This document shows, piece after piece, positions 1,396-39,598 of a stretch of 41,533 nt of DNA. A program made the position numbers and the translations under genes. How positions within the stretch are numbered: position 1 is the stretch's first letter; each line of letters opens with the position of its first letter. The notes under the pieces are model-generated. The model did not search any database and was not told the DNA's origin. It was given only the letters and a program-made list of their open reading frames with translations. This stretch comes from a virus: positions 1-41,533 of the IMG/VR virus record IMGVR_UViG_3300005838_000023; one strand, given 5' to 3'.

Positions 1396-4300
1396 TTACT
1401 CCGTTTCTCTTAGTACCTTTCTTATATTAGCACGGATTTTAGCTTCTGTCAAGGCTTTCTTTAAGTATGCTACTCGCTCGTCCACCGCCGAAGCGCGCTC
1501 GGCGCGCCTTCGCAGCAAATCCTCAATCTCTTCTTCGGTAGGTGCGCGTCCATTAAATGCTGCCGTCAATTCTTCGATAGCCTTTTCGCGCTCGGTCATG
1601 CGGGGGGCTCCCGCTTCTCGGGGCTCTCCAAGTGTGCCTCTCAGTGTGCCCGCGGGCTCCTTGTAGGTGTCTCTGATCGCCTCGATCTCTTCTGGGGTCA
1701 TGCGGCGCCCCATCGACTGCTCTTGTCGCTTGACATACATTTCTATGTCCTCTTCTTTGCGCTTAGCCTCTCTCTCGTCTTCTGTTCCAAAAAACTTCTT
1801 TGTGATCTCTGGGCTTTTTAGGTGCTCGCCGTTTGCTCCTCTTCTCAAGCTGTGTGGGATGTTGGCGTCAGCCATCCATGCGTCAACATTTCGCCCCCAG
1901 CCATTAGGAAGATGGGCGCCTACCTCCCACCGCGATGCGCCCATCCCCTGACTCATTGGCTTTAAGTACTTCTCGATCAAAACCTCTTTCTCGAATTCAT
2001 TCATCTTTGAGTACACATCGCCATTAGACCACCACTCTACGATAGCACGGTGGTGGCTCTGCTGAATACCCATGGCGTCATAAGCATAGTCTTTCATGAT
2101 CATTTTACTCAACTCCATCGCATAGTCGGCGCCGAGGTATTCCCTTTTTAACTCCTGTGCGATCTCAAGGTTGGGTGTGAGGGCGAACTCTTGTGTCACT
2201 TCCTTGGCTGCTTGCATCACCATGTCAACATGTTTGTCTACAAACTCAACGAAGTGAAACGCGCCTTCTAGCTCCTCTTTGGAGTCTTTGCTCATAGCCA
2301 CAATCTTGAGCCTGAAAAAGATGGGTTGATTTGCGGATTGTTTAGCCACACTCTCAGCAGTTCCAAATCTTAAGGCGATCTGTACGTCCTTGGCAAAACT
2401 AATGCCTTCATATTTGGGCGATGCGTATTTGTCTCCGAAAGGGAGGTCGATCTGTGTCTTTGCATAGCCGTTCGCTGCAGCTTCTAGTTTCTTCAGCCTC
2501 TCGGCAAAGAACTTAGCGTAGGATGAGTTGGTGTCAGAACCAACCCACACCCAACTGCCGGACTCTCGCCTACCCGAAAGAGCTTTCGCCATCAAGCCTG
2601 CCGGCTCAATATGCCGGGGATTTCTAGCGCCTCCAAATATGTTTGGGTGCTTCGCTAGCCAATACATCTCGCTAGCAGGATACGTCAGATTCAAAGGCAT
2701 CTCGTAGTCTGAGTTGTGGGCGCCATGACCTAGGTTAAACCAGATCTCTCCTGTCGGATCGTCGTCATCGTCACCGATAATATTAAAGTTCTTGAGCCTG
2801 TCTTCAAAGTCTTCGATCTCGTTCTGTGTGTCGTCCCATGCGCTAGGTTTCGCGAAGCCTTCCTCAACCAATTTCCTTCTGACCTTCTCGTAAAACTGAT
2901 CATACTTGCCGTCGAGATCTCGCATGTGATCCAAGAAGTAGTCGGCATCGTCTGGAGTGGTGCAGTCCTCGCAGTTGAACCGGTAATTGATCTCAAGACC
3001 ATCCTCCGTATGATTCCAGTCTGTTTCCTCGGGGTATTCGCCAAAGTCCAAGAGGTTTTCAAAGTCCCGGTAGCCCTCATCGTTGTATGATTGGGGAATA
3101 TCGTATGTCGGGTGAACGTCGTTGCCTTCGCCATCATCACCCCAGCCCAGCGGGATTGTTAGAGTGAGGTCGCCGCTAGCTTGGACCTGCGGTGGGTACT
3201 CGGCTTCTTCCCAGTAAACGTCCGCGTAGAAGGACGCATGCTCTAAGTCGTTGGCTGCTTCATTGAGATCTTCTGCTGCGGATTCGTACTCATCGTTCAT
3301 TTGTTCATTTTCGCTTTCTTCCTCGTCGTCGGCGTCATGATGAACGTCCATCCCATCGTTGTAGGGATCGGGGAGGTCGCCTCCGCGAGCCTCAATCCCG
3401 AAAAACATATTGAGGATTTCCCCATCGCGAGTGTCGCCGTAGCTGCCGCCGTGTCGCGTAAGGTAGCTTTTCTCTGGGATGAAATACGTGGTTGCCTCGC
3501 CCTTACCAGACTCGGGATCAACGTCACCCAACTCTTGAGCAAACATCTCTTTCTGTTTCTCCCACACATATTCTCTAACCGCACCGACAAAGCCGGGAAC
3601 GGCGGTGCCGTATGTCCTGCTCTCGGGCGCAGCGAAGGTTAGGCTGTTCGGGTCATCGACATACTTCCTGAGTCTGACGCGAGCCTTTACGCCGATGCCG
3701 GGTACATCGCGGTCGTGATCTCTGAAGATTTCTTCGTCGTCGAGGTCGCCAATATCTCTCGGGTCTGGCGCTCGGGTGGCTTCTTTGCTGTGCTTCTCAA
3801 GTGCAGCTTTATATTCTTCTTCAGATGTGATTCCTTCCCACGGCTTGAATAAGTCTGGGTGGCTACCGGGACCACGGGCTTCATACTTCTCGTAGTTTTT
3901 AACGTACTGCTTGAACAACAATGGGCTGATGTTGAGAGCCTTGGCTTGAGCGAGCAGCATAACTTCTTTAAACTTCTCAGGCTTCGATGCCATCTCAACC
4001 TTCTTCTCCATTCCGTTCCACCACTTTGTGCCGGTGTTGGTCCTAGCCCACACCCACAACAACATCAACGCACCCTCGGGTGTCTCGGTGTCGTAGTCCT
4101 GACGGATAGCTGTGATTCTCTCAGCTTGTCCTAGCTCCTGATACATCCTGTCGAGTTTCGCAATCGGTCGTTCTCTTTCCTCAGAGGGTTTCAGAAGTTT
4201 ATTAAGTTCTGCCTCTGTGACTGCGTATGCGATAGGACCGTGACCCTTTGCTTCCGCAACAGCACACTTGAAGTAGTCGCTGCCCTCGCTGTGGCATGAG

Positions 4301-5124
4301 TGAATGTTACTAATGTCGCTCATGCGCAGCACGTCGATAGGGTGACGTGACAGAATAACGTGCATGTCCTCACGGTGGTGCGTTTGCCCTTCGTCGGACA
4401 GTCCTGTTTGGATTTTCTTATGGTTCTGATCTTTTGTGTAATGTGTCTGGTTCTTAGTCCACCACTCTGCTGCGCCTGCAGCTAGCTTGCCCTTCTTCTC
4501 AAGACCGCCGATGACTTTATTGATTCCCTGCTTCTGAACCTTAGTAATCTTCTCGCCTGCTCTCGGACCTTTCGGGATAACTTGCTCGACTCGGCGCTCA
4601 AGTCCAAGGTCGGCTACGTTAATCTCCACCTCGTACTCGCCGCCGCCTTCAGCAGCAAGGCGCTGACGCTTCTGCTTCGCCTTCTTTGTGGGGAACCCCC
4701 GCTCGGGTGCATCTGAGGCTTCCCATGCCTTCCACTCTTCTTTGGTTGGCTCCCACTCACCGCCGTCAGGATTGTATACCTGACCGGTTTCTTGACCCTT
4801 TTCGTAAGAGTAAATGCTCCGCTGACGCTCGCGGGCGCTGTCAGAGATTGGAGGTAGCCAGCCTTCTTCCTTGATTGCTCGCAGGATCGACTTGAGCATA
4901 CGGGTGTCGTGGCTGTCCATGGGGAGAGCCACGCGCATATTGTCGCCGAAGATCTCATCGAAATCGTAGGGAAGCCCGTCAGTGTCCCGCATCCAATCAT
5001 AGATCTTCTCAGCGGCATTCTTTGAGATCTCATTCATGATCTCACGGCGCTCGATGAGTGTCAGGGGCTTTGTGCTTTGTGTGAACTTCTTCCAGTTCTC
5101 TAAAATAGTTTTGTATTCCATCAT
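1396..5124 (-). CDS. Giant (1242-aa) phage protein, paralogue of the 793-aa protein
   Basis: A 1242-aa protein of unknown function. Residues about 258-310 carry a distinctive block: SRHPIDVLRMSD, then SCHSEG, then YFKCAVAEAKGHGPIAY. The same block occurs in the gene at 37128-39509. Homology also covers an N-terminal FDEIFGDNMRVAL segment, a WWTKNQTHY segment and a RVRLR...APESRTYG...PGF segment. The middle is very acidic (many D/E, residues about 590-790). Around residues 880-950 a GISFAKDVQIALRF segment followed by PIFFRLKI faintly resembles an ADP-ribosyltransferase core. The C-terminus is a Glu/Arg-rich helix. The N-terminus has ENWKKF, similar to the WxxFL tag of other genes. Size and tag suggest a virion or co-injected protein (inference). 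The start is one of two tandem ATGs behind GGCAGGAAC. Confidence 0.8.
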   Translation of the reverse strand: MMEYKTILENWKKFTQSTKPLTLIERREIMNEISKNAAEKIYDWMRDTDGLPYDFDEIFGDNMRVALPMDSHDTRMLKSILRAIKEEGWLPPISDSARERQRSIYSYEKGQETGQVYNPDGGEWEPTKEEWKAWEASDAPERGFPTKKAKQKRQRLAAEGGGEYEVEINVADLGLERRVEQVIPKGPRAGEKITKVQKQGINKVIGGLEKKGKLAAGAAEWWTKNQTHYTKDQNHKKIQTGLSDEGQTHHREDMHVILSRHPIDVLRMSDISNIHSCHSEGSDYFKCAVAEAKGHGPIAYAVTEAELNKLLKPSEERERPIAKLDRMYQELGQAERITAIRQDYDTETPEGALMLLWVWARTNTGTKWWNGMEKKVEMASKPEKFKEVMLLAQAKALNISPLLFKQYVKNYEKYEARGPGSHPDLFKPWEGITSEEEYKAALEKHSKEATRAPDPRDIGDLDDEEIFRDHDRDVPGIGVKARVRLRKYVDDPNSLTFAAPESRTYGTAVPGFVGAVREYVWEKQKEMFAQELGDVDPESGKGEATTYFIPEKSYLTRHGGSYGDTRDGEILNMFFGIEARGGDLPDPYNDGMDVHHDADDEEESENEQMNDEYESAAEDLNEAANDLEHASFYADVYWEEAEYPPQVQASGDLTLTIPLGWGDDGEGNDVHPTYDIPQSYNDEGYRDFENLLDFGEYPEETDWNHTEDGLEINYRFNCEDCTTPDDADYFLDHMRDLDGKYDQFYEKVRRKLVEEGFAKPSAWDDTQNEIEDFEDRLKNFNIIGDDDDDPTGEIWFNLGHGAHNSDYEMPLNLTYPASEMYWLAKHPNIFGGARNPRHIEPAGLMAKALSGRRESGSWVWVGSDTNSSYAKFFAERLKKLEAAANGYAKTQIDLPFGDKYASPKYEGISFAKDVQIALRFGTAESVAKQSANQPIFFRLKIVAMSKDSKEELEGAFHFVEFVDKHVDMVMQAAKEVTQEFALTPNLEIAQELKREYLGADYAMELSKMIMKDYAYDAMGIQQSHHRAIVEWWSNGDVYSKMNEFEKEVLIEKYLKPMSQGMGASRWEVGAHLPNGWGRNVDAWMADANIPHSLRRGANGEHLKSPEITKKFFGTEDEREAKRKEEDIEMYVKRQEQSMGRRMTPEEIEAIRDTYKEPAGTLRGTLGEPREAGAPRMTEREKAIEELTAAFNGRAPTEEEIEDLLRRRAERASAVDERVAYLKKALTEAKIRANIRKVLRETE

Positions 5125-5137
5125 GTTCCTGCCTTAA

Positions 5138-5485
5138 TTAATATGTGTTCTGTTCTCCATCCTCAAACGTAATGATCGTTTTGTTAGATGGGTGAGGCTC
5201 TACATGAACCTTTAAGAAGTCGCCAAGCGAATCGAAGATAGCGATGCCGCCTCTGGGTGGTGGGTAGAGCCAGTGAATGATGCAGTGACCAGACGCAAGC
5301 TCCACGCCCTCGATGACTACGCCTTCGCCTGATACTCCTGTCTCGTCGCTCTGTCGGCAGACTGTAAAAGTCCTGATACCTCTTGGCGCTAGTTTCGGTG
5401 GCGGCTTGGGCTTGAGACTTTCATCTATCTCACCCAACTCGTCAACGGTCACCATCGCAATAGTATTGTCTGTTGTTTCATTCAT
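5138..5485 (-). CDS. Conserved-looking phage hypothetical protein
   Basis: A 115-aa protein. The ATG at 5483-5485 is preferred over one 9 bases upstream because GGGGA is about 8 bases before it but adjoins the earlier ATG. After a Pro/Lys-rich linker (KPKPPPKLAPRG) comes a compact beta-rich domain: RQSDETGVSGEGVVIEGV, then GHCIIHWL, then FDSLGDFLKVHVEPHPSN. I have the impression of similar sequences in other phages but cannot assign a function. It overlaps the end of the neighbouring coiled-coil gene by a few bases if the earlier start is used. Confidence 0.6.
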   Translation of the reverse strand: MNETTDNTIAMVTVDELGEIDESLKPKPPPKLAPRGIRTFTVCRQSDETGVSGEGVVIEGVELASGHCIIHWLYPPPRGGIAIFDSLGDFLKVHVEPHPSNKTIITFEDGEQNTY

Positions 5486-5486
5486 T

Positions 5487-5780
5487 CTATGCATCCCCCA
5501 CGGGAGTCAACCCCTTCATTAGTTGTGCTTCATATTCATCGGTAATCGACTTCATGATCGCTTTCTCTGCTTCTTTCATCTCTTCCATATGGTTCCACAA
5601 TAAAACATTTTCATCTTTTACTGCATCTAGCTGATCAGACAGCTTCTTGTTGTGTACTTTAAGTAACTCAACAGTGTATCTTAATTCGTGGTTCGTCCGA
5701 TGGAGAGAGGATTTCGATGTTCCCGCTCTCAAGACTTTCCGTAAAATCGCGGACATTGATTGTGTGACGCTTTTTGCCAT
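5487..5780 (-). CDS. Coiled-coil protein overlapping the next gene
   Basis: A 97-aa protein, mostly one long helix with heptad spacing from about residue 30 (ELRYTVELLKVHNKKLSDQL, then KDENVLLWNHMEEMKEAEKA). The reading frame stays open to 5834, but the ATG at 5778-5780 is preceded by GGGGAACAGAA and is the best start. About 110 bases (5668-5780) are shared with the gene at 5668-5916 in another frame. Both products look like real proteins. A later start would have to lie at the methionine within the coiled coil, which would destroy it. Confidence 0.55.
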   Translation of the reverse strand: MAKSVTQSMSAILRKVLRAGTSKSSLHRTNHELRYTVELLKVHNKKLSDQLDAVKDENVLLWNHMEEMKEAEKAIMKSITDEYEAQLMKGLTPVGDA

Positions 5781-5916
5781 TTCTGTTCCCCATTGAAAAA
5801 ATCTCATAATAGTATTCCCTTTGCATGTCGTCATGCCTGTGTTCTGTAAAACCTACCCAGAATTTATCCACCACGACGTGCATGTTGTGACCGATCATTA
5901 CCAACGAACCAATCAT
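5668..5916 (-). CDS. Hypothetical protein, start overlaps upstream stop
   Basis: An 82-aa protein starting at an ATG that overlaps the TGA stop of the upstream gene (ATGA, 5913-5916). Mixed hydrophobic and aromatic content (SLVMIGHNMHVVVDKFWVGF, then REYYYEIFSMG) looks like a small beta-rich fold. Its 3' third overlaps the coiled-coil gene at 5487-5780 out of frame. No family recognised. An upstream in-frame ATG at 5943 exists but would lengthen the overlap with the preceding gene. Confidence 0.5.
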   Translation of the reverse strand: MIGSLVMIGHNMHVVVDKFWVGFTEHRHDDMQREYYYEIFSMGNRNGKKRHTINVRDFTESLESGNIEILSPSDEPRIKIHC

Positions 5917-6299
5917 GTTGTCGTCTCGGTTGGGACACCCCACCGGACAATGCTTAGTCCCTTGATTTTCGCCATGTCTTTTACCAAGTATCTTTTAACC
6001 CAATACGTCGGTCGCAACTCAGAGTTAAGCTCAAACTTAATAATATATCGGTTGAACCAATACTGGTCGGTTGCTCTGGCTCGGCTCTGAGCGCCGGCAC
6101 GGGCAGGATCTGTAACGGTTGTAACGCGCTCGATTGCACGCATGTCATCAATCGTCTGGTCTTTGTTACCGCCCTTCTCCTTACTAATACGAACATCCAC
6201 CTCGACCTCATACGTGCGCTGAATGTAGGTCGGATCTTTAGTGGCTGCCTCTTTAAGAGCGGCGAACCATTTGTCTGTTGCTGTTTGTGAACTCATCAT
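5913..6299 (-). CDS. Hypothetical protein
   Basis: A 128-aa soluble protein. The N-terminus has KWFAALKEAATKD, in which LKE-A resembles a T4-type prohead protease site, as in the tagged proteins elsewhere. The second half (QYWFNRYIIKFELNSELRPTYWVKRYLVKDM) is rich in aromatic and basic residues. Immediately upstream on the coding strand is AACTATTTATAA, a 12-mer found again before the 793-aa gene. No known domain recognised. Confidence 0.6.
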   Translation of the reverse strand: MMSSQTATDKWFAALKEAATKDPTYIQRTYEVEVDVRISKEKGGNKDQTIDDMRAIERVTTVTDPARAGAQSRARATDQYWFNRYIIKFELNSELRPTYWVKRYLVKDMAKIKGLSIVRWGVPTETTT

Positions 6300-6320
6300 T
6301 ATAAATAGTTTGTTAAAGGG

Positions 6321-7058
6321 TTAAAGGCGGTTTAGCAGCAAAGCAGTATCTTTCCAAGAGGTGACGCTGTGAACGTGTCCATTGGGTCGCTTTTCTACCA
6401 GTTGTGCGATTGCATAATCGTTGCCGGGAAATTCTGTTCTATCTCCTACAAAATGTATTGTAACATCTTTCGGCAAATCTTTAAAATGTTCCCGAATCAC
6501 CTGTGACTTGTCGCACCCTTTGGCAAAAATATCGATGCTTACTGCGCCACCAATCACGAAGTCCAACTTGGGATATTTGGCTTGTAGCATAGCCACAATC
6601 TCTTCTCTCTCCTTGTGCTCGGCATCGTACTGTGTATAGGCTTTGCGTTGCTTCTGGGTCGCTTTACCGCCTACAATCGAGAAGTTGATCATGCCAGTTC
6701 GCTCAGAAGCATGTTCACCGGTCTTGACGGGGTACTTAGAATCCGTGACGATTTTTGCCAATGTCGGAAACAACTTCTTTGGCGCGGTAAATTTGTTTTC
6801 ATACCCGAAGAACCATGCTCGCGATTCATCGCGTTTGTTTTTGTAATACACGTTGCCCATACATGCAAAGACTCCAGCTATGCCCTCCATAACATCACCG
6901 CCTAGCTGCTCGCATAGGCGTATGAAGCTACCGCCAGAAACTAAATAAACCTCTTTGTTTTCAATCCATTTCAAGAAATCTTTGCGAAATTCTGGGGAAG
7001 CTGTTTGCTTTGGTGGTGTCAATGTCCCATCAACATCGAACAAGTAGAGGCATCTCAA
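6321..7058 (-). CDS. Phosphomannomutase, eukaryotic PMM-like HAD type
   Basis: A 245-aa protein that aligns along its length with eukaryotic phosphomannomutases (PMM1/PMM2/Sec53 family, HAD type IIB). Visible motifs are LFDVDGTLTPP at 6-16 (nucleophile D8, D10), LVSGGSF, a cap-domain ERTGMINFSIVG segment, IGGAVSIDIFAKGCDKSQV, and the acidic motif HFVGDRTEFPGND near 203-215. The family converts mannose-6-phosphate to mannose-1-phosphate in GDP-mannose synthesis. It is the usual length for the family (about 245-260 aa). The bacterial enzyme (ManB/CpsG) belongs to an unrelated fold, so a eukaryote-type enzyme in a phage is notable. It directly follows the cupin isomerase gene in transcription, so the two probably act in sequence. 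A related HAD phosphatase is the main alternative. Confidence 0.85.
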   Translation of the reverse strand: MRCLYLFDVDGTLTPPKQTASPEFRKDFLKWIENKEVYLVSGGSFIRLCEQLGGDVMEGIAGVFACMGNVYYKNKRDESRAWFFGYENKFTAPKKLFPTLAKIVTDSKYPVKTGEHASERTGMINFSIVGGKATQKQRKAYTQYDAEHKEREEIVAMLQAKYPKLDFVIGGAVSIDIFAKGCDKSQVIREHFKDLPKDVTIHFVGDRTEFPGNDYAIAQLVEKRPNGHVHSVTSWKDTALLLNRL

Positions 7059-7060
7059 GG

Positions 7061-7447
7061 TTAATCATTCCCCCGATTGTAGTCATCCTGCAAGCGCACT
7101 ACATCATCAATCTCCGGAGTGCTGACCTCGATTAGTGTCACGTCTTCTTTGTCGGCGCAATAACGATGAATCATTCCGCTTCCGATGTGCTGGCTGTCTC
7201 CCTCATTTAGTACCACCTTGATTCCAGTCTCCGTCTTGACGTGCTGGTGGTGCGGTCCTATCTCTAGCAACAGCGATCCCTTGAGGACATATATAGTCTC
7301 GTCCTTTACGACATGATACTGAAGGGAGAGTCTATGCCCTGCATTGATGTGCAGAATCTTTCCCAAATAGTTGTCGGTGATTGCCCAACGATCTTCATAG
7401 CCCCAAGGCTTATCTACTCTCATACTATCTCCAAAATAGCTGCACAC
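7061..7447 (-). CDS. Cupin, mannose-6-phosphate isomerase (type II-like)
   Basis: A 128-aa single-domain cupin with the signature of the ManC/type II phosphomannose isomerase C-terminal domain: VDKPWGYEDRW near the start, HRLSLQYHVVKDETIYVLKG (metal-binding His residues), LNEGDSQHIGSGMIHRYCA, then LIEVSTPE. These domains interconvert fructose-6-phosphate and mannose-6-phosphate, feeding the phosphomannomutase encoded next. The full bifunctional enzyme carries an N-terminal nucleotidyltransferase domain that is absent here; a nucleotidyltransferase-like gene lies separately at 24200-25111. Start at ATG 7447 gives MCSYFG; an internal ATG (MRVDKPWG) is also possible. Confidence 0.8.
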   Translation of the reverse strand: MCSYFGDSMRVDKPWGYEDRWAITDNYLGKILHINAGHRLSLQYHVVKDETIYVLKGSLLLEIGPHHQHVKTETGIKVVLNEGDSQHIGSGMIHRYCADKEDVTLIEVSTPEIDDVVRLQDDYNRGND

Positions 7448-7775
7448 CCATAATGCAGCAGGACAAGCCGATGCAGATCATCGTCTTGGTTGTGAACATG
7501 CTTTCGTTCAAAAGCAAGTAGGTTAATATTGGGAACACAAAATACGATGCTGCGAAGCCCATGAATCTGCCCGACCATGCCTCTCCAGTCTCTTCAAAGA
7601 TATAGCGTGTCGCCATCCAGAAACTGAGCCCAACAGGGATAGAGTAGATGCCAACAGCAAGCAAAGGCTTGTCCTTCCACCATTCCCACGCAAACTGAGA
7701 GTTTAGCTGAAACCATGCACAGATGTGTCCAACGATAAAAAAGCAAATGCCGTAGAAAAAGTTAATGTTAGGCAT
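7425..7775 (-). CDS. Four-helix membrane protein, EamA/DMT-like
   Basis: A 116-aa very hydrophobic protein with about four transmembrane helices (near residues 6-24, 38-56, 70-90 and 96-114). The last pair, FPILTYLLLNESMFTTKTM then IGLSCCIMGVQLFW, resembles the end of a drug/metabolite-transporter half unit. Such small four-TM proteins can work as dimers, but transport is not shown. It overlaps the isomerase gene by 23 bases at its 3' end and sits between the mannose genes and the peptidase-like gene, so a role in sugar export or surface change is only a guess. Confidence 0.7.
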   Translation of the reverse strand: MPNINFFYGICFFIVGHICAWFQLNSQFAWEWWKDKPLLAVGIYSIPVGLSFWMATRYIFEETGEAWSGRFMGFAASYFVFPILTYLLLNESMFTTKTMICIGLSCCIMGVQLFWR

Positions 7776-8235
7776 TGTTGCTCCATTTCAAATACTTGTA
7801 TAGTGCGCTCGTAACCATCGAGTGCCACAGCTTGTCGTCGATTGGAATCTGAAAGTCTGAAGCTATCTCTAAGCCCTTCTCCCATGCCATCACCTCTTCT
7901 CTGAGGGTATCGATCTTGTGTGCTCGGGTCGCTCTTTTGCTGTTCAAGACTGCAGCCGGATAGCGACGAGCATGCTCCACCTCGCACTCGCGCAGAAGCA
8001 CATGCCCTGTCTCATGCAGCAGCATATATAACTGTCTTTCGAGAGTTACACGGTTGTCAACTATAATAAAGTCGCCGGGAATAATGGATCGCTTACTGTG
8101 AAATAGTGCGGTTTCGCCGTCGTGTTCAAAAACAACAGGCAACCCATATTCGATATCTAGAAAGACTACAACCCTATCAATGTATTCTCTGATATCACTT
8201 TTTTCTTTTTTTGCTGCATTCATGACAGTCTTCAT
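7768..8235 (-). CDS. IrrE/ImmA-like zinc metallopeptidase
   Basis: A 155-aa protein with an HETGH zinc-binding motif (H74, E75, H78) in MLLHETGHVLLRE, a short helix after it (ARRYPAA), and a further acidic helix (EEVMAWEKGLEIASDF) that would supply the third ligand, as in the ImmA/IrrE family (COG2856). Family members cleave repressor proteins or act in stress control. Here the domain stands alone without a DNA-binding domain. The start may be ATG 8235 or the ATG at 8221-8223 (MNAAKK). The 5' end overlaps the glutaredoxin-like gene by about 40 bases. Confidence 0.7.
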   Translation of the reverse strand: MKTVMNAAKKEKSDIREYIDRVVVFLDIEYGLPVVFEHDGETALFHSKRSIIPGDFIIVDNRVTLERQLYMLLHETGHVLLRECEVEHARRYPAAVLNSKRATRAHKIDTLREEVMAWEKGLEIASDFQIPIDDKLWHSMVTSALYKYLKWSNNA

Positions 8236-8485
8236 CTTCCAATCCTAGGTGATCTTTCAAGTCGTTGAAGCCACCAATGACTTCTTCATCCCCATTTATA
8301 TCGCATTTAACAACCAATGGTAAAGTTGGCCAACGATATTTCTTGCCGACAAAAACCTGCATCTCTGGGCTTTTATCCAGAAAGGTTAATGCATACTCAT
8401 AGCCAGAACGGTCTAGCTGTTTTACAGCTTCGATAGCGTAGGGGTCGTGACCCGTGCCATACACATGATAAAACAAAATAGACAT
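8195..8485 (-). CDS. Glutaredoxin-like protein lacking the N-terminal CxxC
   Basis: A 96-aa protein with a glutaredoxin/thioredoxin layout: first strand ILFYHVYG, helix AIEAVKQLDRSGYEYALTFLD, a cis-Pro-like WPTLPLVV segment and IGGFNDLKDHLG, which matches the end of glutaredoxins (IGGxxDLxxL). The usual CPYC active site at the end of strand 1 is replaced by GHDPYA, so classical dithiol chemistry is not expected there. A CHEC pair near the C-terminus (residues 88-91) is followed by a basic tail and might bind metal. Function unknown; thioredoxin fold moderately sure. Confidence 0.6.
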   Translation of the reverse strand: MSILFYHVYGTGHDPYAIEAVKQLDRSGYEYALTFLDKSPEMQVFVGKKYRWPTLPLVVKCDINGDEEVIGGFNDLKDHLGLEDEDCHECSKKRKK

Positions 8486-8487
8486 CG

Positions 8488-8781
8488 TTATCCCTGCAGG
8501 AGAGCCTTCGTCTGAATACTAAGTTTGGTCTCGATGGTGCCGATACCGCCCACAACCACAATGTCCAAGCCTCCGTGTCCACGATTCATTTGAATCTTGG
8601 TGAACTCTTGGCGCTCATCTAAGCCATCAGGCAGGATGCCTTCTTTGAGCAAAGATGTCGCACGGTGGTCTGGTCTAAGGCACACTACATAGTCTGGGTT
8701 GACAACAACCTCGCGCAGCGTCCACTTTCCGCTCTTCTGGGTGGGCTGTTCATACAACTCCACCAGTTTAATTCCTTTCAT
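8488..8781 (-). CDS. Hypothetical protein
   Basis: A 97-aa protein with alternating strands (LREVVVNPDYVVCLRPD, then QEFTKIQMNRG, then LDIVVVGGIGTIETKL). Its ATG overlaps the upstream TGA (ATGA) behind a strong GGAGGAG site, so it is coupled to the 78-aa gene before it. No family recognised. Composition suggests a compact beta domain. Confidence 0.6.
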   Translation of the reverse strand: MKGIKLVELYEQPTQKSGKWTLREVVVNPDYVVCLRPDHRATSLLKEGILPDGLDERQEFTKIQMNRGHGGLDIVVVGGIGTIETKLSIQTKALLQG

Positions 8782-9014
8782 TTCTCCTCCGGTGTGTAGG
8801 GATAGACGTGGGCTTTCTTCACCAACATCCTGCGCCCTTTAATAAAAAGTTTAAGTCCCGCATCGGCTTCTTCCAAGAAGATTCCTGTTGTCGGTGCCTC
8901 AGTCACCAAGACGTTCCCAGAGCCCCAGTGCCACAACTGGACATCCTGCGGAATATAGACCAGATCGCCGTGGGCGAACTGTTCGCTATCCGGTTTCTGG
9001 TGTTTCGTCTTCAT
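8778..9014 (-). CDS. Hypothetical protein
   Basis: A 78-aa protein with a short beta-rich pattern (GDLVYIPQDVQLWHWGSGNV, then GIFLEEADAGLKLFIKGRRM, then VKKAHVYPY) that could be a small SH3-like barrel. It overlaps its neighbours at both ends, which is the arrangement of a translationally coupled cluster. No specific function visible. Confidence 0.6.
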   Translation of the reverse strand: MKTKHQKPDSEQFAHGDLVYIPQDVQLWHWGSGNVLVTEAPTTGIFLEEADAGLKLFIKGRRMLVKKAHVYPYTPEEK

Positions 9015-9282
9015 TCATTTTTCCCTGAATAGCGTTGTTGTAACCTGACAGCAGCGAGGCTGCATCCTCAAGCCGCTGGTCGATGCGTGCAAGGCTCTGG
9101 CGAGTCTTATCAATAAGTTCCAGAATTTCTTCGCCCTTCAACTGATCCTTTACTGTAACGTCGTCGATATTGGCTACGTGATTGGACAGGAAAAGCAAAG
9201 ACTTGCCGCTCTCTCTCATAAATTCAGTAATCAAGTCGGGAATGTTCTCCAACTCTTCTGAATAAGTAATGTTAACTCTCAT
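8986..9282 (-). CDS. Helical hypothetical protein
   Basis: A 98-aa mostly helical, acidic protein. Residues 50-85 (EEILELIDKTRQSLARIDQ, then LEDAASLLSGYNNAI) have heptad-like spacing. It overlaps the 5' end of the 78-aa gene by 29 bases. No family recognised. Possibly a structural or regulatory helper. Confidence 0.55.
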   Translation of the reverse strand: MRVNITYSEELENIPDLITEFMRESGKSLLFLSNHVANIDDVTVKDQLKGEEILELIDKTRQSLARIDQRLEDAASLLSGYNNAIQGKMNEDETPETG

Positions 9283-9305
9283 CTATACTCCAATAGATAC
9301 TGTTG

Positions 9306-9635
9306 TTAGCTGCCGGAAACGATCATTCCCCAAATGCTATTCATCACCAGCGCAATAGTCAAGCTAACGATTGACCATGTGATCTTGGTGTTTGCTGCCT
9401 TCCAAGTCTCTAGCTGTTGGACCCGCGCCTCCAACTGAGCATGGCGGGCATACAAGCCCTGATCGGGGTTGTACATGGCTTCTTTGATCATAGAAATGTC
9501 ATCAGCCGCTTCACTGATGTCGGACTTGATCCCGTCGATGCCGCTGCTAAGCAGATCGATCTTGGAACTCAAAGTCGCCATCGACTGGTTCAGTTCAAGC
9601 ATTGTGATCACATTTTCGGAAATATCTGGAGCCAT
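9306..9635 (-). CDS. Coiled coil plus C-terminal TM protein, holin/XhlA-like
   Basis: A 109-aa protein. Residues 10-75 are amphipathic coiled coil (LNQSMATLSSKIDLLSSGI, then HAQLEARVQQLETWK); residues 84-105 form one transmembrane helix (ITWSIVSLTIALVMNSIWGM). This layout is like hemolysin XhlA or holin-associated phage proteins. The endolysin gene is at 13040-13975, so a lysis role is reasonable but unproved. It lies just after GroEL in transcription order. Confidence 0.6.
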   Translation of the reverse strand: MAPDISENVITMLELNQSMATLSSKIDLLSSGIDGIKSDISEAADDISMIKEAMYNPDQGLYARHAQLEARVQQLETWKAANTKITWSIVSLTIALVMNSIWGMIVSGS

Positions 9636-9645
9636 AGTACTTTAA

Positions 9646-11235
9646 TTAGTCCGATGTTTCGATTACCGCGTGACTGGTTGTAAATAAAGTGCCGGCTGCT
9701 GATGCTGCATTCTGCAACGCACAACGGGTGACCTTCACAGGGTCAATCACGCCAGACTCTACCATCTTTGTCAGCTTGCCAGTGTGAAAATCCCAGCCCT
9801 CATCAGGTGAAGCTGCACGGATCTTATCACAAATCAAATCAGGGCTTTCCCCTGCATTCACTGCCATCTGTCTAAGCGGGGCATGCACTGCAGCCTTTAT
9901 GATCTCAATCCCACAGCGCTGCTCTTCGTTGTCAGCGTCAATCTTCAATGCTGCTGCTGCGCGAATAAGCGCTACGCCTCCGCCGGGTACAATGCCCTCT
10001 TGCTGCGCAGATCTTACTGCCTCTAGCGCATCTTCGATCCGATAACGCTTTTCAGTCATCTCGATCTCGGTGGCTGCGCCCACTCGGATCACAGCAACGC
10101 CGCTAGCGAGCCTAGTAATGCGCTCCTGCAGCTTCTCGCATTCGTGAATGGAATCAGTTACCGATAGTTCTGCCTTAAGGTTCTCAATCTGTTCCTCGAT
10201 CTTGGCATAGTCGCCTTCACCGCCGGCAACAGTCGTGCCGCCCTTGGTAATCTCGATAGTCTTGCAAGAGCCTAAGTGCTCCAAGGTTACTCCCTCCGGA
10301 GACAAGCCCTTGGAAATAGTAATGAAGGTCGCGCCTACAGATAGTGCCAAGTCCTGCATGATGTTTAGCCGATCCTCGCCATAGCGGGGTGCCTTCACTG
10401 CTGCAACCTTGATTCCTGAGTTCATTTCCTGACGGCGAATAGCGTTCATGACCAACGCAGCCAATGCCTGACCCTCTACTTCGTCTGCAACAACAATCAA
10501 TGGACGGCTGCTGCGGTCTGCGATCTCAAGCACAGGCAACAACTCATCCACTCGCTCAATCTTGGCATCGGTTACCATAATAAGTGGATTTTCATATCGA
10601 ACTTGCCTGCGGCGAGAGTCTGTGATGAAAGCGGTGGCTACATATCCAGAAGCAAATCGGAAGCCTTCAATCAGATCCAAGCTTGTCTCTAAGCTCCGCG
10701 CTTCTTCGACAGTCACAGCCCCATCTTTGCCGGCGCTATCGACTGCAGTTGCCACCAGTTCGCCCAACGTGCGATCATTGTTGGCAGAAATGGTCGCGAC
10801 GTGAGCAATATCTTCCTTGCTCTTAATCGGCTGAGCCATGTCCTGAAGGTTAATAACTACTGCAGCTACTGCCTTGTCCATACCGCGCTTCAACTCAATT
10901 GGCGACATGCCTGAGGCAAGATAGCGCTGAGATTGTTCTAGAATCTCACGCGCAAGAACAGTTGCAGTTGTAGTCCCATCGCCGGCTGAAGAATTTGTTT
11001 GTGAAGACGCTTGTTTAATGATCTGCGCTCCAACATTCTCAAACGGATCGTCCAGTTCTACGTGTTTCGCTACAGTCACGCCATCCTTGGTGATGATGGG
11101 GGTGCCGCCGGCGGTCTGTAGGATTACATTCCTGCCTCTCGGTCCCAAAGTTGCTGCTGTATAATCAGCCAGCAGGTTTACGCCATTCATAATCTTCTGG
11201 CTTAAGCCCACACCATTGTTGTACTCTTTAGACAA
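9646..11235 (-). CDS. groL: GroEL-like chaperonin (Hsp60)
   Basis: A 529-aa group I chaperonin with typical motifs: LGPRGRNVILQ, ITKDGVTVAKHVEL, the ATP-binding AGDGTTTATVLAREI near residue 87, ASGMSPIELKRGMDKAV, ISANNDRTLGELVATAV, and the C-terminal EGIVPGGGVALIRA. It would fold phage or host proteins in a double ring with a GroES-type lid. The start is TTG at 11233-11235 behind GAGG with 6-base spacing. The C-terminus ends in HAVIETSD with no GGM repeats, as in several phage or divergent GroELs. A perfect TTGACA-N17-TATAAT promoter lies 25-55 bases upstream. A GroES-like gene is 15 kb away at 25989-26267. Confidence 0.97.
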   Translation of the reverse strand: MSKEYNNGVGLSQKIMNGVNLLADYTAATLGPRGRNVILQTAGGTPIITKDGVTVAKHVELDDPFENVGAQIIKQASSQTNSSAGDGTTTATVLAREILEQSQRYLASGMSPIELKRGMDKAVAAVVINLQDMAQPIKSKEDIAHVATISANNDRTLGELVATAVDSAGKDGAVTVEEARSLETSLDLIEGFRFASGYVATAFITDSRRRQVRYENPLIMVTDAKIERVDELLPVLEIADRSSRPLIVVADEVEGQALAALVMNAIRRQEMNSGIKVAAVKAPRYGEDRLNIMQDLALSVGATFITISKGLSPEGVTLEHLGSCKTIEITKGGTTVAGGEGDYAKIEEQIENLKAELSVTDSIHECEKLQERITRLASGVAVIRVGAATEIEMTEKRYRIEDALEAVRSAQQEGIVPGGGVALIRAAAALKIDADNEEQRCGIEIIKAAVHAPLRQMAVNAGESPDLICDKIRAASPDEGWDFHTGKLTKMVESGVIDPVKVTRCALQNAASAAGTLFTTSHAVIETSD

Positions 11236-20532: not shown

Positions 20533-23500
20533 TTATCCCAATAGTTTAAAGTTATGGTGGATTGAGCGGGTACTAAAGCCCCACTTAGGATCGTATTCAA
20601 GGCGTGCCATGTATGGACGATTGATTTGTACGTTGTCTCCGCGCTCGGGCTTGACGCCCCAGCACTTGATCTTAGTAGTCTTGCTAGTGGAGTCGATCAC
20701 TTCTACGATCCAATATACCTTGCCGTGCTTAGTCTTGCGCGGAACAATCTTGCGTGGCACGAACCATGCCACCTGCAGGGCGGGGTCGAACTCACCGAGT
20801 GGCGGCACAAACCTCTCCTCCAGCCGCCGGCGAACGTTCTCGTCAAGAACCAAGTCGAATGGGAACACGCCAGTCAAGTCAACCTTATACTGAATCAACT
20901 CCTCTTCGCTGAAGTTTCCTTCGGGAGCGTATGTCTCGATATTATCTGCGAAGCGCTTCTTGTTCTTCGGACGGTCAACAGCAACTGCCGACCAGAAGTG
21001 CTTGAGCCCAGAGAAGCGGTCATCCATGAGACTGTTCAGAGCCTGACAACGAATAAGAACATCGAGTGCCTTCTTGTTCAGCTTTGAGTACGTGATGTTC
21101 TCATTGAACAGGAAGTCTTCAATCTCACTGAACGGACGATTGGCAATCACCTGTGCAATAGCAGCATCACCCAAGCCCTTAACCGAAGTCAGAGGCTGAA
21201 TAAGCGTCTTACCATCATCGCTGATCTCCCAGACGTTACCAGACTTGTTAATGTCCAGTGGAGCAATCTCAAACCCAAAGTTCTTGGCAATGTTGATTGC
21301 CTTCTCCTTGCGAGATTCCGGCTCCTTATCCAAGAAGGATGCCATCCACTCAGAAGGATAATAATTCATCAGCCACGCGCATTGGAACGAGAGGACCGAG
21401 TACGATATTGCATGCGACTTATTGAAGCCATAACCAGAAAAGTACTCAAAAGTATCCCACAGTCCTTCAGCGTCTGCGAGCTTGATGCCCTTCTCCTGAC
21501 AACCTTCAACAAACTTTTTATGAATAAGCGCTTTCTTATCATGTTTACCTGTTCCCTTCTTAGTAAGTAGCTTGCGAAGCAAGTTACCTTCATCAAGGGT
21601 CAAGTCCTTGCCCAACTTGTGAGCCAGTAGTGCGATCTGCTCTTGGAAGATCAGGAAGCCATAAGTCTCCTGAGTAATCTCTTCCACGATTGGATGCAGG
21701 TACTTGACATACTGTGGTGCCTGCTTAGCCTCAACGTAATCCTTATCTACGCCGGCGCTCAATGGACCGGGACGGAAGATTGACGTGATGGCTGAGATGT
21801 CAATGATACTTGACGGCTTGGCACGAACACAGAAGTCTTGCGCGCCGTTCTCAGTAAACTGGAACACTCCACCCCACTTGCCGGCGTGAAAGATATTCGT
21901 ATAAACATTCTGATCATCGAAGTCCATCTTATCCGGGTGAAGGTTAGTATTATAGAAGCTCCGAATCTCATCGAAGGTCGGGTGCTCCGTATCATGGTGG
22001 CGCTGCAAGATATGACGAATGGCGCCCTCGATCATTCGGAGTGTGGACAGACCAAGAATATCGAACTTAATGAAGCCCATTGGTTCCAAATGCCGAACGT
22101 TCTGCCCCTCTGCCCATGGCGTCTGTCGAACGCCGCCGGAGTTGATCAGCGGCATATACTGGTCAAGGTTTTCAGCAACCACCACGCCGCCTGCATGCCG
22201 TGAACAGGAACGAACCTGACCATACAGAGCCTCAACGTGTGTCTTGACGTGCGGGTACTGATTTAGGAACTTTTGTAGCGAGCCGCTGAACTCCATGACC
22301 TCTTCAAAGGTAGGAGTGTACACCCCAGCTTTGATACCATGTCGCTGCTTCGCCGGTCCAGTTGCCTCATAGAGCATGGCGCCGGTAACTGCGTTAACCT
22401 CTGTGAACTCAATCCCATAGAACTTTGAAATATCCTTGATCAATGAGCGTAGCTGCAACGTGTTCCAGTTGGAGATGGGAGCAACAGTATCTTCACCCCA
22501 CTCTTCGATCAACTCTTCCTTGAGTGCCATCGGGTCCGATACATCGTAATCAATATCCGGATAGTCAGTGGCATCAGAGCGTAAGAAGCGAGAGAACAGA
22601 AGCCCATACTTGATGGGATCAATCTGAGTGATACCCAAGGCATATGCCACAAGCGAGCCGGCAGCAGAGCCGCGACCGGGACCGGTTAGCATCTTTGCGG
22701 ATGCTTTGTCGGCGATAGCCTTCATGGTCAGAAAGTACTTGCTAAAACCTCGGTCATCGATGACGGATAGCTCACGGGTGAGGCGTTCAATGTATTCGTC
22801 ATCCTCATGATAGCCGAGAGACTTCAGACCCTCAAAGCTTAGCTTGACCAGTGCATCAGTAGCGGTCAGTCCAGCGGGAACCACGAAGTCAGGAAGTCGT
22901 ACAGTGTTGTCCGGAAAAAAACTTTCAATGCGGTCGTGAGCAATCTTATACCCAGTTGTGATCGACTTGAGTACCACGTCATCATCGTACTCATAGTCCG
23001 CTGCATACTTCTCGTAACTCTCCCACATCTGATCGCCGTTCTTGGGATACAACTCGTATCCAATCTCTTCAACGTCAATCGGGAGTTCGCTGCTCTCGTA
23101 TGCAGGCTTGCTCTTTCCAAGCCAGCCTAGGCGCTTATAAAGTTCGCGATCCTTCCACGCAGTAGGATTGGGGTAATGACTGTCCGCTGTTGAAACTAAG
23201 TCAACGCCAAACTCATTGTGCATTTCAATGATACACTGGTTCAGTGTGTGCTGCTCGGGAACATTGTTCCACTGCAGTTCACCATACCATCGGTCGCCAA
23301 AGATCGATTGCATTCGACGAGTAGTCGTCCGCATACGCTCTAGGCACTGTTCTCTGTCAAAGGAGCGACTGCCTTCATCGTCAGTCTCCCAGCTATGCCA
23401 GAAATCCTGTGCATAAACTCCGCCCAAGCATGCAGAAGATGCAATGATGCCTTCCGAATACTTTTCAAGCAAAGCATAATCCATTCGGGGATAACGATAA

Positions 23501-32675: not shown

Positions 32676-33737
32676 TTATCTAACTGCAAAGACAGTCCAA
32701 GAAACTCCCAGACTTGGATCATCATACATTCTTTCGCCGACTTTATAATGGGTCCGATTTGAATTTGAATATGTCGTACGCACTTTAGTAATTGGGCGAA
32801 GGCGGAACTTGATATTGACATTAGGATCAGTGATATAATATTCTACGACTTCATCAATCGACTGAGTTTTCGCTAGAATATTTTGAAGGTCTGCAGGGTC
32901 GGTGATGCCGGGAGGTACATCAGCTATCAACACGGCATCTGCTCTCGCTGGATTCGTTTCCGCGCCGGCACACACAAGCGTTAAAAAGCTGCGGTAAGAC
33001 TCACCCAACACATCAGACAAATGAAGGTAAATGTTTTTTATTTTAAAAGAATTTTTCAGTAGCCCGTTCTTCCCAAAGGCTTCTGACACCGCCAAAGCTT
33101 GATGTGCTGCTCCATCTTTAGCCAGTGGGGAGGGGAAAGAGTACGAAGGGTCTGCTGCAGTCACAATCGAAAGGAATTGGTCCTTCTCTTCTTGGATCAC
33201 AGATGCTTGTTCCGCTGTGATCTTTGCCAACTGCTCCTTCATGTCGTTTACAAGAATGTTACGAGCATCTTCCTCCAAGCCGACCTCGACAAGTTTTGCA
33301 CGAAATTTAGCTTCATCCATCCGATTTTCTAAAAATCCAAAGTTTTCTTTCTTCATGCTTAGACCGATAGCGCCGCCGTCAGCTAGCACAAGGTTAATGT
33401 CTGCCTTTGGCTCTGGCTTGCCGCCGCCCATTTGTTTAGCGCCCACAACCATTTGCTCGCCCAAACTGCCAATGGTCATCGGAACAGGTTGACCACCGTT
33501 CGCGTTCACAACGCTATTAACAGCAGCAACTAAGTTTCTCTCGCTATCCTGCCCAGACATTTGCTCTTGAAGTGACTCGGCTTCTGGAGCCAGAGAGCCA
33601 AAATCATCGCAACCAATGGCAGAATCACAGATAGCAACTTCATCGTCTGCACCTGTTCCCAAATCTAACATTTCACCAGCCTCTTGCTCTTCTGTTAAGA
33701 ATCTGCGCCAGCCTTCCATAATAGGTTTCATTGTCAT
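32676..33737 (-). CDS. WxxFLxE-tagged protein with possible nuclease core
   Basis: A 353-aa protein. The ATG at 33735-33737 overlaps the methylase stop (TAATG); a second ATG two codons later is possible. The N-terminus has EGWRRFLTEE (residues 8-17), the tag shared with the 264-aa and 793-aa proteins, followed by an acidic linker (residues 18-65). A core shows SLGEQMVVGA (E94), KADINLVLADGG (D113) and IGLSMKK (S127, K129), a PD-(D/E)XK-like order. The second half (YLHLSDVLGESYRSFLTLVC, then SIDEVVEYYITDPNVNIKFR) looks like a separate fold. A co-packaged nuclease is a speculation. Confidence 0.65.
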   Translation of the reverse strand: MTMKPIMEGWRRFLTEEQEAGEMLDLGTGADDEVAICDSAIGCDDFGSLAPEAESLQEQMSGQDSERNLVAAVNSVVNANGGQPVPMTIGSLGEQMVVGAKQMGGGKPEPKADINLVLADGGAIGLSMKKENFGFLENRMDEAKFRAKLVEVGLEEDARNILVNDMKEQLAKITAEQASVIQEEKDQFLSIVTAADPSYSFPSPLAKDGAAHQALAVSEAFGKNGLLKNSFKIKNIYLHLSDVLGESYRSFLTLVCAGAETNPARADAVLIADVPPGITDPADLQNILAKTQSIDEVVEYYITDPNVNIKFRLRPITKVRTTYSNSNRTHYKVGERMYDDPSLGVSWTVFAVR

Positions 33738-37127: not shown

Positions 37128-39509
37128 TCAACTATATAAAAAGTTTTTCCAGTTCTTAACGATAGACTCGTTAGTGGTTTGTGCAGGGGGAGTGTCCATG
37201 TCTCCCCGACCAGTAAGACCGTCGCCAACTATGTGACTGAACATTGCCTGAATCTTTGCGTCAAGCACCTCTTCGTCTTCCCACTCCTCGATTGTCCACT
37301 TCATAGCCTTGACTTGGGCTTCGCTGCTGTGATCATAGCAGGAAAAGGTCAGAACAAGCCTGATGTTGGCTTCGTCTGTCGTGCGAATCTCTTCGGTGTA
37401 CACTCTGAAGTCTGGATATTGACGATCATCACCTGATACCTGTGTACCTGCCCATGCTTTCTCCACCAGCGCTTTGCGTAATGGAATAGTAAAATCTCTG
37501 CTCTCCAAGATCGTGCGTGCGTCTTGGACGCTCATGCCTTCTGGTATAGCAGGATATGCTGTGTGTGAGCCATCAATCTCAGTATACGTCATGGGCTCTT
37601 CTTCGTTGGCAGTCATGTCCCATTCGTAGTAATCAGCATCTCCGTTTTCGATCTCCTGACCCCACTCGTTGATGGTGCCGCCTTCCATAAAGCCGTCGCG
37701 CTTAGCCATGCGAGTGATCTCGCCTTTGACGGCATCGTACATGTCATCGATGCGATTTACTTCAATACAGTAATCTTCAAAGCTATCAGGATCATAGACT
37801 ATTCCTTCCTCTATGATGCCTTCGTTGTCCATATCAATAGTAAGTCTGATGGTGCCATTGGAGTACTTCAGTAAGCGAGTGCCGTGGCTATCCTGTGCCC
37901 AATTCCATTCATAGTCTTGAAGCTCAGCCATCCAGTACCCGACAGCTTTGCCGTCCTGTGGTAGAGAATCCCATTCGTCTATTTCCCAATCTATATTCAT
38001 TTCGGCGGCTGCATCGATGTAGAAGCTTTCATCATAGTCTTCTGTGACTTCTGCTTGGACTCGACATGCTTGATAGCGGTTATTCCAATCGGCGGCTGTG
38101 TCGTCGCATTCTTCTTGGGCGTTAGCCATTTGCCCTTGAATGAATCTCATGTCCGGAAGCGACTGTTCTGTTTCTTCGTTCTGTCCCATGAGTTCATATT
38201 CGATACCGGTCAAGTCTTTTACAAGCTCTTTAATATTATTATCCTCGTAGGATCCGCCGTACTTGACCAGCCAGCCATCGTCTGGACTTAATGTTGAAAT
38301 AACCCCTGACTGGTTTTCTTTAGCCCATGCTTGCACTCTGTCGCGGAAGCCGGGAATCCTCAAGCCATAGACGCGGCTTTCTGGTACAGCAATCTGTGGT
38401 CCGTTTCCGTATTTGGCTGCAGACCTATCAGCGTATGCGCGAACCTGACGTAAGCGGACGCGGGCTACGGGAAGCATCTCCATAGATAGTCCGACATGGC
38501 TACCGCGTATGTCATCCGCAAATATCTCACCATCATATTCGTGAATATATTTTTCAGCGCCTTCGATAGTCTCGGACCCGGTGGACTCTAATAGCTCCGC
38601 AGTTTCCACCACGTAAGCAATAGCGCCATGACCGTGAGCCTCTGCGACCGCACATTTAAAATAAGACGTATCACCACCTCTAGATGGCGGTGAGTGGCAT
38701 GACGTAATCCGATTGAAGTCCGACATGCGGATAATGTCAACAGGATCCCGTGAAATGATAATGCTGTATTTGTTTTCGGTTAGATTGCCGATGTTCTTCT
38801 TAATGTAATCGGCATTCTGCTGCCAGTATACTTGCATTTTCTTGGCGTCTGCTGAGCTAAGCGTGAGTCCGCCAAGATACATTTGAAGCTGATCGAATAA
38901 CTGGTCGTACCTCTTCACTTCCTGCTCATCGAGGGCTGCGGCAATCATCTTTCCTGTAAGCTGACCGGGCTTGTCGAGTGCTCCGTAACCGCCTTGAGTA
39001 TAGCCAATACTATTTAAGTGATCGAAGACCTTTTGAGAGAGCGCTTCTCTCTTTGAAGCCAGTTCATAAATCTTTCCGAAAAACTTACCGATCTTCATCT
39101 GGACTTTCTTCTTTTTAGGGATGGTGTTCGCTAACGTTGCGGCATCCTGAAAGCCCAGCGCAGCGACCGAAGCTGAGATACTGCTATCCTTTAACTCTCT
39201 TTCGCCCGAAATCAGACCTTTTTCCCAATCTACGTCATAGCCCGCTTTGCGGAACCCATCGACAAACTTTCCTAAGTCGCTGGAAGTATTCATTGTCGGA
39301 AAATCGAGCACAAGGCGCGTTTTGCCTCCAAACAGTTCGTTAAACGCCAGTTCGTCCGGCTCGAAGCCATCGATGACATCTTGGATAACCGAGATCTCGT
39401 CTTCATCCAGTTCTCGGAGCAATTTCCGCTCTGTGTACATTTTTGGCTTTTTAGCCGGTTTTGCGGCTTCAGTTAAAAAACTGCGCCAGCTATTTTCATC
39501 ATAACTCAT
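37128..39509 (-). CDS. Giant (793-aa) phage protein, paralogue of the 1242-aa protein
   Basis: A 793-aa protein starting SWRSFLTEAAKPAKK, a tag that resembles a T4 capsid-targeting peptide with a likely FLTE-A cleavage site. Near residues 248-300 it has SRDPVDIIRMSDFNRITSCH, then GGDTSYFKCAVAEAHGHGAI, the same block as in the 1242-aa protein. The N-terminal FNELFGGKTRLVLDF and VPESRVYGLRIPGFRDRVQA segments are also shared. Residues about 450-680 are Asp/Glu-rich. The very end has NESIVKNWKNFLYS, another WxxFL element. AGAGGA precedes the ATG. No known family. Probably a virion or co-injected protein (inference). Confidence 0.8.
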   Translation of the reverse strand: MSYDENSWRSFLTEAAKPAKKPKMYTERKLLRELDEDEISVIQDVIDGFEPDELAFNELFGGKTRLVLDFPTMNTSSDLGKFVDGFRKAGYDVDWEKGLISGERELKDSSISASVAALGFQDAATLANTIPKKKKVQMKIGKFFGKIYELASKREALSQKVFDHLNSIGYTQGGYGALDKPGQLTGKMIAAALDEQEVKRYDQLFDQLQMYLGGLTLSSADAKKMQVYWQQNADYIKKNIGNLTENKYSIIISRDPVDIIRMSDFNRITSCHSPPSRGGDTSYFKCAVAEAHGHGAIAYVVETAELLESTGSETIEGAEKYIHEYDGEIFADDIRGSHVGLSMEMLPVARVRLRQVRAYADRSAAKYGNGPQIAVPESRVYGLRIPGFRDRVQAWAKENQSGVISTLSPDDGWLVKYGGSYEDNNIKELVKDLTGIEYELMGQNEETEQSLPDMRFIQGQMANAQEECDDTAADWNNRYQACRVQAEVTEDYDESFYIDAAAEMNIDWEIDEWDSLPQDGKAVGYWMAELQDYEWNWAQDSHGTRLLKYSNGTIRLTIDMDNEGIIEEGIVYDPDSFEDYCIEVNRIDDMYDAVKGEITRMAKRDGFMEGGTINEWGQEIENGDADYYEWDMTANEEEPMTYTEIDGSHTAYPAIPEGMSVQDARTILESRDFTIPLRKALVEKAWAGTQVSGDDRQYPDFRVYTEEIRTTDEANIRLVLTFSCYDHSSEAQVKAMKWTIEEWEDEEVLDAKIQAMFSHIVGDGLTGRGDMDTPPAQTTNESIVKNWKNFLYS

Positions 39510-39569: not shown

Positions 39570-39598
39570 AAAAAAATTTGACATAACGGCGTTATCAA
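39570..39598 (-). terminator. Terminator after the family A polymerase
   Basis: TTGA-TAAC and GTTA-TCAA arms (39578-39598, small bulge) overlap the polymerase stop codon and are followed on the minus strand by seven T (39570-39576). Typical rho-independent layout, moderate stem. Confidence 0.6.

Follow-up and report, generated by a model that had tools for sequence, protein, structure and literature searches.

Two large paralogous phage proteins with putative head-targeting tags and a core domain shared with jumbo phages

Introduction

In bacteriophage T4, a few internal proteins are brought into the head by a targeting peptide that they share. The N terminus of IPII and IPIII reads MKTYQEFIAE↓A, and that of IPI reads MKTFKEFTSTTTPVSTITE (arrows here and below mark a cleavage site or its predicted counterpart). 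The first ten residues of IPIII are enough for packaging, the T4 prohead protease cleaves after L/I-x-E, and Alt undergoes processing at its N and C termini alike (PMC9026906). Here we analyze two genes of a virus in the IMG/VR collection, record IMGVR_UViG_3300005838_000023, of which positions 1 to 41,533 form the window (41,533 nucleotides). The genes encode a long protein, P0001, and a short one, P0002. Sequence comparisons slightly favor the reading (probability about 0.55) that both are head-packaged, ejected internal proteins of a T4-headed, probably marine phage, like Alt and the internal proteins of T4.

Results

P0001 and P0002 had been described in an earlier note as paralogues sharing a block around the motif SCHS. 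Both reading frames were found at the positions and lengths given there, 32.0 kb apart; both are encoded on the minus strand. BLASTP aligned the two proteins with 61% identity over a 57-residue block (E 3e-17) and with 31% identity over a second block of 132 residues (E 8e-9), and similarity at the N termini was weak. Profile-profile alignment of 40 short-family and 11 long-family sequences by hhalign paired residues 1–763 of P0002 with residues 4–983 of P0001 (683 columns, probability 100%, E 3e-55). The likeness is therefore not confined to one block, the outcome that would have spoken against the claim, and P0001 and P0002 are full-length paralogues, homologous nearly from end to end and so more fully than had been proposed. 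All motifs quoted in the note were recovered in identical order in the two proteins when relatives were included in the alignment. P0001 differs from P0002 by an insert of ~150 residues within the core and by a C-terminal extension. The very acidic central regions were likewise confirmed, with Asp and Glu making up 30% of residues 580–800 of P0001 and 26% of residues 440–640 of P0002.

At least 227 relatives of the pair were found in IMG/VR. A family member was present in 22 of 22 records examined, mostly as a short form of about 770–980 residues; some of these records additionally carried a long form (1100–1776 residues), usually 25–36 kb away from the short one. The T4-type major capsid protein gp23 and prohead protease gp21 were encoded in all six of the largest related records (160–205 kb). 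These relatives would place the family in uncultured T4-headed phages, and a marine habitat is likely. One relative lies on a contig assigned to a bacterial genome bin from the Tara Red Sea samples (L159), probably a phage contig that was mis-binned.

The N terminus of P0002 carries the core WRSFLTE↓A, with a predicted site FLTE↓A, and that of P0001, WKKFTQSTKPLTLIE, resembles the IPI version and contains the candidate cleavage sequence TLIE; ENW.(K/R)F and L/I-x-E are kept in the long-family alignment. Among related loci, the pattern [WF]x.[FYW][LIV].E occurred in the first 26 residues of 131 of 1590 unique genes, compared with 8 of 8885 internal windows. After removal of the first 30 residues, the tagged proteins fell into 30 clusters separated by BLAST; as in the class of Alt and the internal proteins, then, a putative targeting peptide is shared by unrelated proteins of one phage. 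When Glu was left out of the search pattern, it still stood at the expected position in 135 of 167 N termini (11 of 85 internal motifs), as the L/I-x-E cleavage rule would demand (PMC9026906). Judged by sequence, the peptides of both P0001 and P0002 thus end in the manner of that class.

Members of the NUDIX, HAD, RNase_T, PGDYG and kinase-like families are among the proteins that bear the tag or a variant form. Individual examples are a protein kinase-like product that falls below the Pfam cut-off (L090:13663-14724), an apparent NUDIX hydrolase (L041:5683-6183), and an RNase_T exonuclease-like product whose tag variant has a shifted Glu (L090:12776-13663). In a 204-kb genome (G006, L128), seven genes within 2363–10151, the first of them the P0002 homologue, start with a peptide of the type W.(K/E).(F/Y)L.E, in versions that include MNFNNWREFLAE, MKGYVKAWKEFLEE, MNNKKWKQFLTE and MKLLFENWRKYLNE. 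These genes are mostly adjacent and their bodies differ, which makes the region a candidate cargo cassette. No tag was found in cultured phages by tblastn, for which such short queries are insensitive, and a literature search for the tag string returned no paper, most subscription papers being outside its reach.

A second WKxFL motif stands at the extreme C terminus of many short forms, including P0002. This C-terminal motif was found in 44 proteins, nearly all of those listed being members of this family, compared with 21 of 18,359 internal windows. In P0001, the conserved C-terminal tail that follows L-T-E is, by analogy with Alt, a possible C-terminal propeptide. Coordinates of these features are collected in Table 1.

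Table 1. Features of P0001, P0002 and tagged neighbors in the window
Feature	Residues	Position	Strand	Remarks
HAD-like protein adjoining P0001		598..1392	minus	Tag MKKHLDTWNHFLNE↓S at 1351-1392; weak HAD-IIIC match
P0001, long paralogue	1242 aa	1396..5124	minus	142 kDa, pI 5.0
P0001 C-terminal tail		1399..1452	minus	LTEAKIRANIRKVLRETE; conserved in long family
P0001 acidic central region	580-800	2725..3387	minus	Net charge -55
P0001 core domain	248-580	3385..4383	minus	Family-specific insert at about 310-460
P0001 SCHS motif	276-279	4288..4299	minus	
P0001 N-terminal tag	1-25	5050..5124	minus	MMEYKTILENWKKFTQSTKPLTLIE; predicted gp21-type L/I-x-E site; parallels T4 IPI
Tagged protein		32676..33737	minus	MTMKPIMEGWRRFLTE↓E; weakly matches phrog_21132 (E 0.002; annotation DNA ejection)
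P0002, short paralogue	793 aa	37128..39509	minus	90 kDa, pI 4.5
P0002 C-terminal tag		37131..37172	minus	NESIVKNWKNFLYS; copy of WKxFL motif
P0002 acidic central region	440-640	37590..38192	minus	Net charge -40
P0002 core domain	243-405	38295..38783	minus	Common to jumbo phages (hhalign)
P0002 SCHS motif	270-273	38691..38702	minus	Ser270 and Cys271 invariant superfamily-wide
P0002 N-terminal subdomain	31-142	39084..39419	minus	F..LF.GK.R.V..F ... GY.VDWEKG ... MKIGK; AlphaFold2 (AF2) model, elements matched by eye
P0002 N-terminal tag	1-14	39468..39509	minus	MSYDENSWRSFLTE, then Ala; resembles T4 MKTYQEFIAE↓A

Head operons of related phages were read around gp21. The gene directly adjoining gp21 in G011 has the strict tag (MDAWRKFLTEA), and in G005 the neighbor of gp21 fits a looser motif (HEGFRKWIGEE); no tagged neighbor was seen in the remaining operons. 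The maturation site of the T4 major capsid protein is established; T4 gp23 has FLTE↓A there, and the likely maturation site in the major capsid protein of the related phages reads ...ELLRE↓A. The tagged gene next to gp21, the position of core genes in T4, would also suit a structural role in which core or scaffold-like proteins give the prohead its shape and are inactive in the host, as would the acidic nature, large size and tags of P0001 and P0002. We regard such a role as improbable: polar residues are strongly conserved in the folded domain, the domain also occurs in phages without T4-type heads, and a separate acidic scaffold-like gene precedes gp23 (G006 119384–120433).

Scans of P0001 and P0002 against Pfam, PHROG and NCBIfam gave no match above the cut-off. 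The note's statement that no known family fits was thus borne out for Pfam and NCBIfam; the sole PHROG relatives, reached by way of jumbo-phage homologues, are the families 17056 and 18912, both of unknown function, and the core domain family therefore appears uncharacterized. No named phage was matched by tblastn with P0001 or P0002 as the query; a match to Streptomyces phage Galactica (E 0.6) was taken as chance. A search with the core consensus, however, led to Pseudomonas phage Lu11 (E 1e-3), with weaker matches in Agrobacterium phage Atu_ph07 and in an uncultured phage of 636 kb, and from Atu_ph07 the domain was traced to further jumbo phages, those of Erwinia and Dickeya among them. In a small sequence set, the near-family hidden Markov model (HMM) scored Atu_ph07, LR756504, HRDY3 and Lu11 at E 1e-8 to 1e-3. 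Comparison of 47 near-family with 15 jumbo-phage sequences by hhalign gave a probability of 97.1% (E 5e-11) and covered residues 243–405 of P0002; the likeness of the N-terminal subdomain (residues 31–142) lies outside this range and was seen by eye.

Eight columns are invariant across the near family and the jumbo-phage relatives, some differing in single members: Arg65, Asp258, Met262, Ser270, Cys271, Tyr299, Arg350 and Tyr381 (P0002 numbering). With Asp, Met, Ser-Cys, Tyr, Arg and Tyr invariant and in order, P0001 and P0002 belong to the superfamily marked by SRHPYD and SCM in jumbo phages. The proteins of PHROG 17056 and 18912 (Atu_ph07 AUZ95153, Lu11_0207-0209, Dickeya JA13_176/177 and Erwinia Yoloswag gp183) contain the same core domain, with its elements in the same order, SRHPYDIAGMS...SCM...GTLVAYL...R.LIKPF...YG..PGF...W, and, as with the pair studied here, there is more than one copy, in tandem or otherwise. 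They differ from P0001 and P0002 in having SCM in place of SCH, shorter loops and other C-terminal parts; the tag is absent from some of them, and an acidic center was not demonstrated. Nearly all are annotated as hypothetical, and the record of one phage says putative exonuclease. In Lu11 (L146/L149), the homologues Lu11_0207 to 0209 stand three in tandem. In L148 and L147, the C termini of the jumbo-type homologues carry repeats, of the WG kind in the 636-kb uncultured phage and of the DUF4116 type in Atu_ph07, which gives the core the look of a head module to which different binding parts can be joined. A virion proteome has been published for Atu_ph07 (PMC6102473). The SCHS/SCM core would be a new domain family across T4-like and jumbo phages.

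The AF2 model of P0002 had a mean predicted local distance difference test (pLDDT) value of 79, falling below 50 in the SCHS loop, and that of a compact jumbo-phage member had a pLDDT of 89.5. Predicted secondary structure followed an identical order in the two proteins, and the core of the compact member is ordered strand-helix-helix-strand-strand-strand-helix. GNAT enzymes have the same order in the first half of their fold. They also formed a large majority of the 50 best Protein Data Bank (PDB) fold matches to the compact core (best E 0.06, probability 0.93), which raises the question of a GNAT-like acyltransferase relic or an active acetyltransferase. This is distinctly improbable, since no fold match reached E<=0.001, template-modeling (TM) scores by query were about 0.33 or less, and HMM comparison with GNAT families gave no match. 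The fold matches are thus weak and partial, and the G-rich loop that joins the last strand to the helix, where GNAT members have the acyl-CoA pyrophosphate loop, is not conserved, being absent from the Erwinia and Dickeya members.

The PDB fold search yielded no convincing likeness of the core to a solved structure; I-OnuI meganucleases and MoaC, matched by the full model, were judged chance on account of low TM scores and large root mean square deviations. A kinship with PcfJ (PF14284), suggested by a C..Y..G..strand pattern alike by eye, was not supported at an hhalign score of 12.4, within the range of shuffled controls, in a weak test with only five trimmed PcfJ sequences. Foldseek against BFVD matched the P0002 structure over its full length to A0A516LC34 (900 residues; E 3.5e-46, 21% identity).

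The note had further taken the Cys, His, Cys and GHG residues of the shared block to be invariant and suggestive of an active or metal site. They are conserved in the near family, which would suit a zinc site built from Cys/His/Cys/His, but two long forms (L119 and L127) have GNG in place of GHG. In the jumbo-phage relatives, His272 is replaced by Met, Cys286 is lost, and the GHG histidine (His294) is not conserved; because these residues are not among the superfamily invariants, a metal site is argued against, and we consider a zinc site very improbable. What stands of the proposal is a possible active site at the SCHS cysteine, suggested by the invariant Cys, Asp, Met, Ser, Arg and two Tyr residues; the second Cys, the His and GHG vary.

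Discussion

P0001 and P0002 resemble Alt and IPI–III of T4 in their short N-terminal sequence, a putative capsid-targeting peptide that ends in L/I-x-E, and the related phages have a T4-type gp21. Like Alt, they are large and have conserved tails at their termini, so that processing at both ends is possible. Unlike Alt, a packaged ADP-ribosyltransferase, P0001 and P0002 form a pair of paralogues with a new core domain and have no Pfam ADP-ribosyltransferase match; PHROG and NCBIfam gave none either, and no ADP-ribosyltransferase fold was among the top structural matches. The tag also differs from that of T4 in being of the W..F/Y L type and in occurring on about 8% of genes rather than on four or five.

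The presence of the tag was compared with head type among the jumbo-type relatives. Seven of the eight records with a Glu just before the domain encode a T4-type gp23, whereas 11 of the 12 without that Glu have no T4-type head (Fisher p 8e-4, scored by hand at the anchored position and post hoc). A wider L/I-x-E expression, which also caught internal motifs, gave p 0.09.

Several observations weigh against packaging in a T4-type head. The jumbo-type records group by clade, which means that the association of tag and head is not independent evidence. Neither gp21 nor gp23 is encoded in the window, a 41.5-kb fragment, or in its closest contigs, and the head type is taken from relatives. No L-x-E follows directly on the WKKF motif of P0001, and T-N-E replaces the C-terminal L/I-x-E in P0002 and many relatives. 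The T4 late promoter TATAAATA was not enriched upstream of genes of the P0001/P0002 type, nor was it enriched for genes generally in that genome. Finally, untagged copies of the domain are retained in jumbo phages that lack T4-type heads, beside a single-stranded DNA-binding protein and recombination genes, and the domain itself is therefore not a head protein by nature.

This last observation is in keeping with a different role, in which P0001 and P0002 would be non-virion early or middle proteins of DNA replication or recombination and WxxFLxE would dock to a phage complex other than the head. A gp32-like single-stranded DNA-binding protein and DNA polymerase A are encoded near P0002, and the Dickeya and Erwinia jumbo-phage homologue adjoins an annotated single-stranded DNA-binding protein and a recombination endonuclease. 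We nevertheless think a DNA-metabolism role rather unlikely, as the end of the tag fits the gp21 cleavage rule, the tag occurs on about 30 separate protein clusters, and one tagged gene neighbors gp21 in a head operon, and as the long form lies 25–36 kb distant, adjoining the tagged HAD protein. The two roles may also be combined, with T4-headed phages pre-loading an activity useful in the cell that other phages make after infection.

If P0001 and P0002 are internal head proteins, their N-terminal tag, and probably the C-terminal one, would recruit them into the prohead core, a step for which the sequences give good support. A gp21-type protease would then remove the tag after L/I-x-E, for which support is fair, and the mature proteins of 80–140 kDa would be packed in the capsid with the DNA. 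By analogy with Alt and IPI–III, they would be ejected into the host together with the DNA. There, we would guess, the core domain (Asp...Met...Ser-Cys...Tyr...Arg...Tyr) would act, most likely in small-molecule-binding or enzymatic host takeover.

More tentatively, and at somewhat less than even odds, one short, cleavable head tag may act as a common address label for the delivery of dozens of unrelated proteins, NUDIX, HAD, PGDYG and kinase-like ones among them, each virion injecting a set of effectors of which P0001 and P0002 would be the largest, with an undescribed catalytic domain family shared with jumbo phages. The packaging principle is already known from T4; what would be new is how broadly the tag is used. 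Should the tag work as in T4, hypothetical genes of uncultured phages would become a readable list of injected effectors, and virion cargo could be found by a simple sequence rule.

Other genes of the window, away from the pair, include a match to the eukaryotic phosphomannomutase family PF03332 (6321–7058, minus strand; E 6.5e-30), which is unusual for a phage. The translation of 9646–11235 (minus strand) reads as a GroEL chaperonin and that of 20533–23979 (minus strand) as a DNA polymerase III alpha subunit, both recognized by inspection of the sequence. Alongside this polymerase III candidate, the window encodes the Pfam-confirmed DNA polymerase A (39595–40875).

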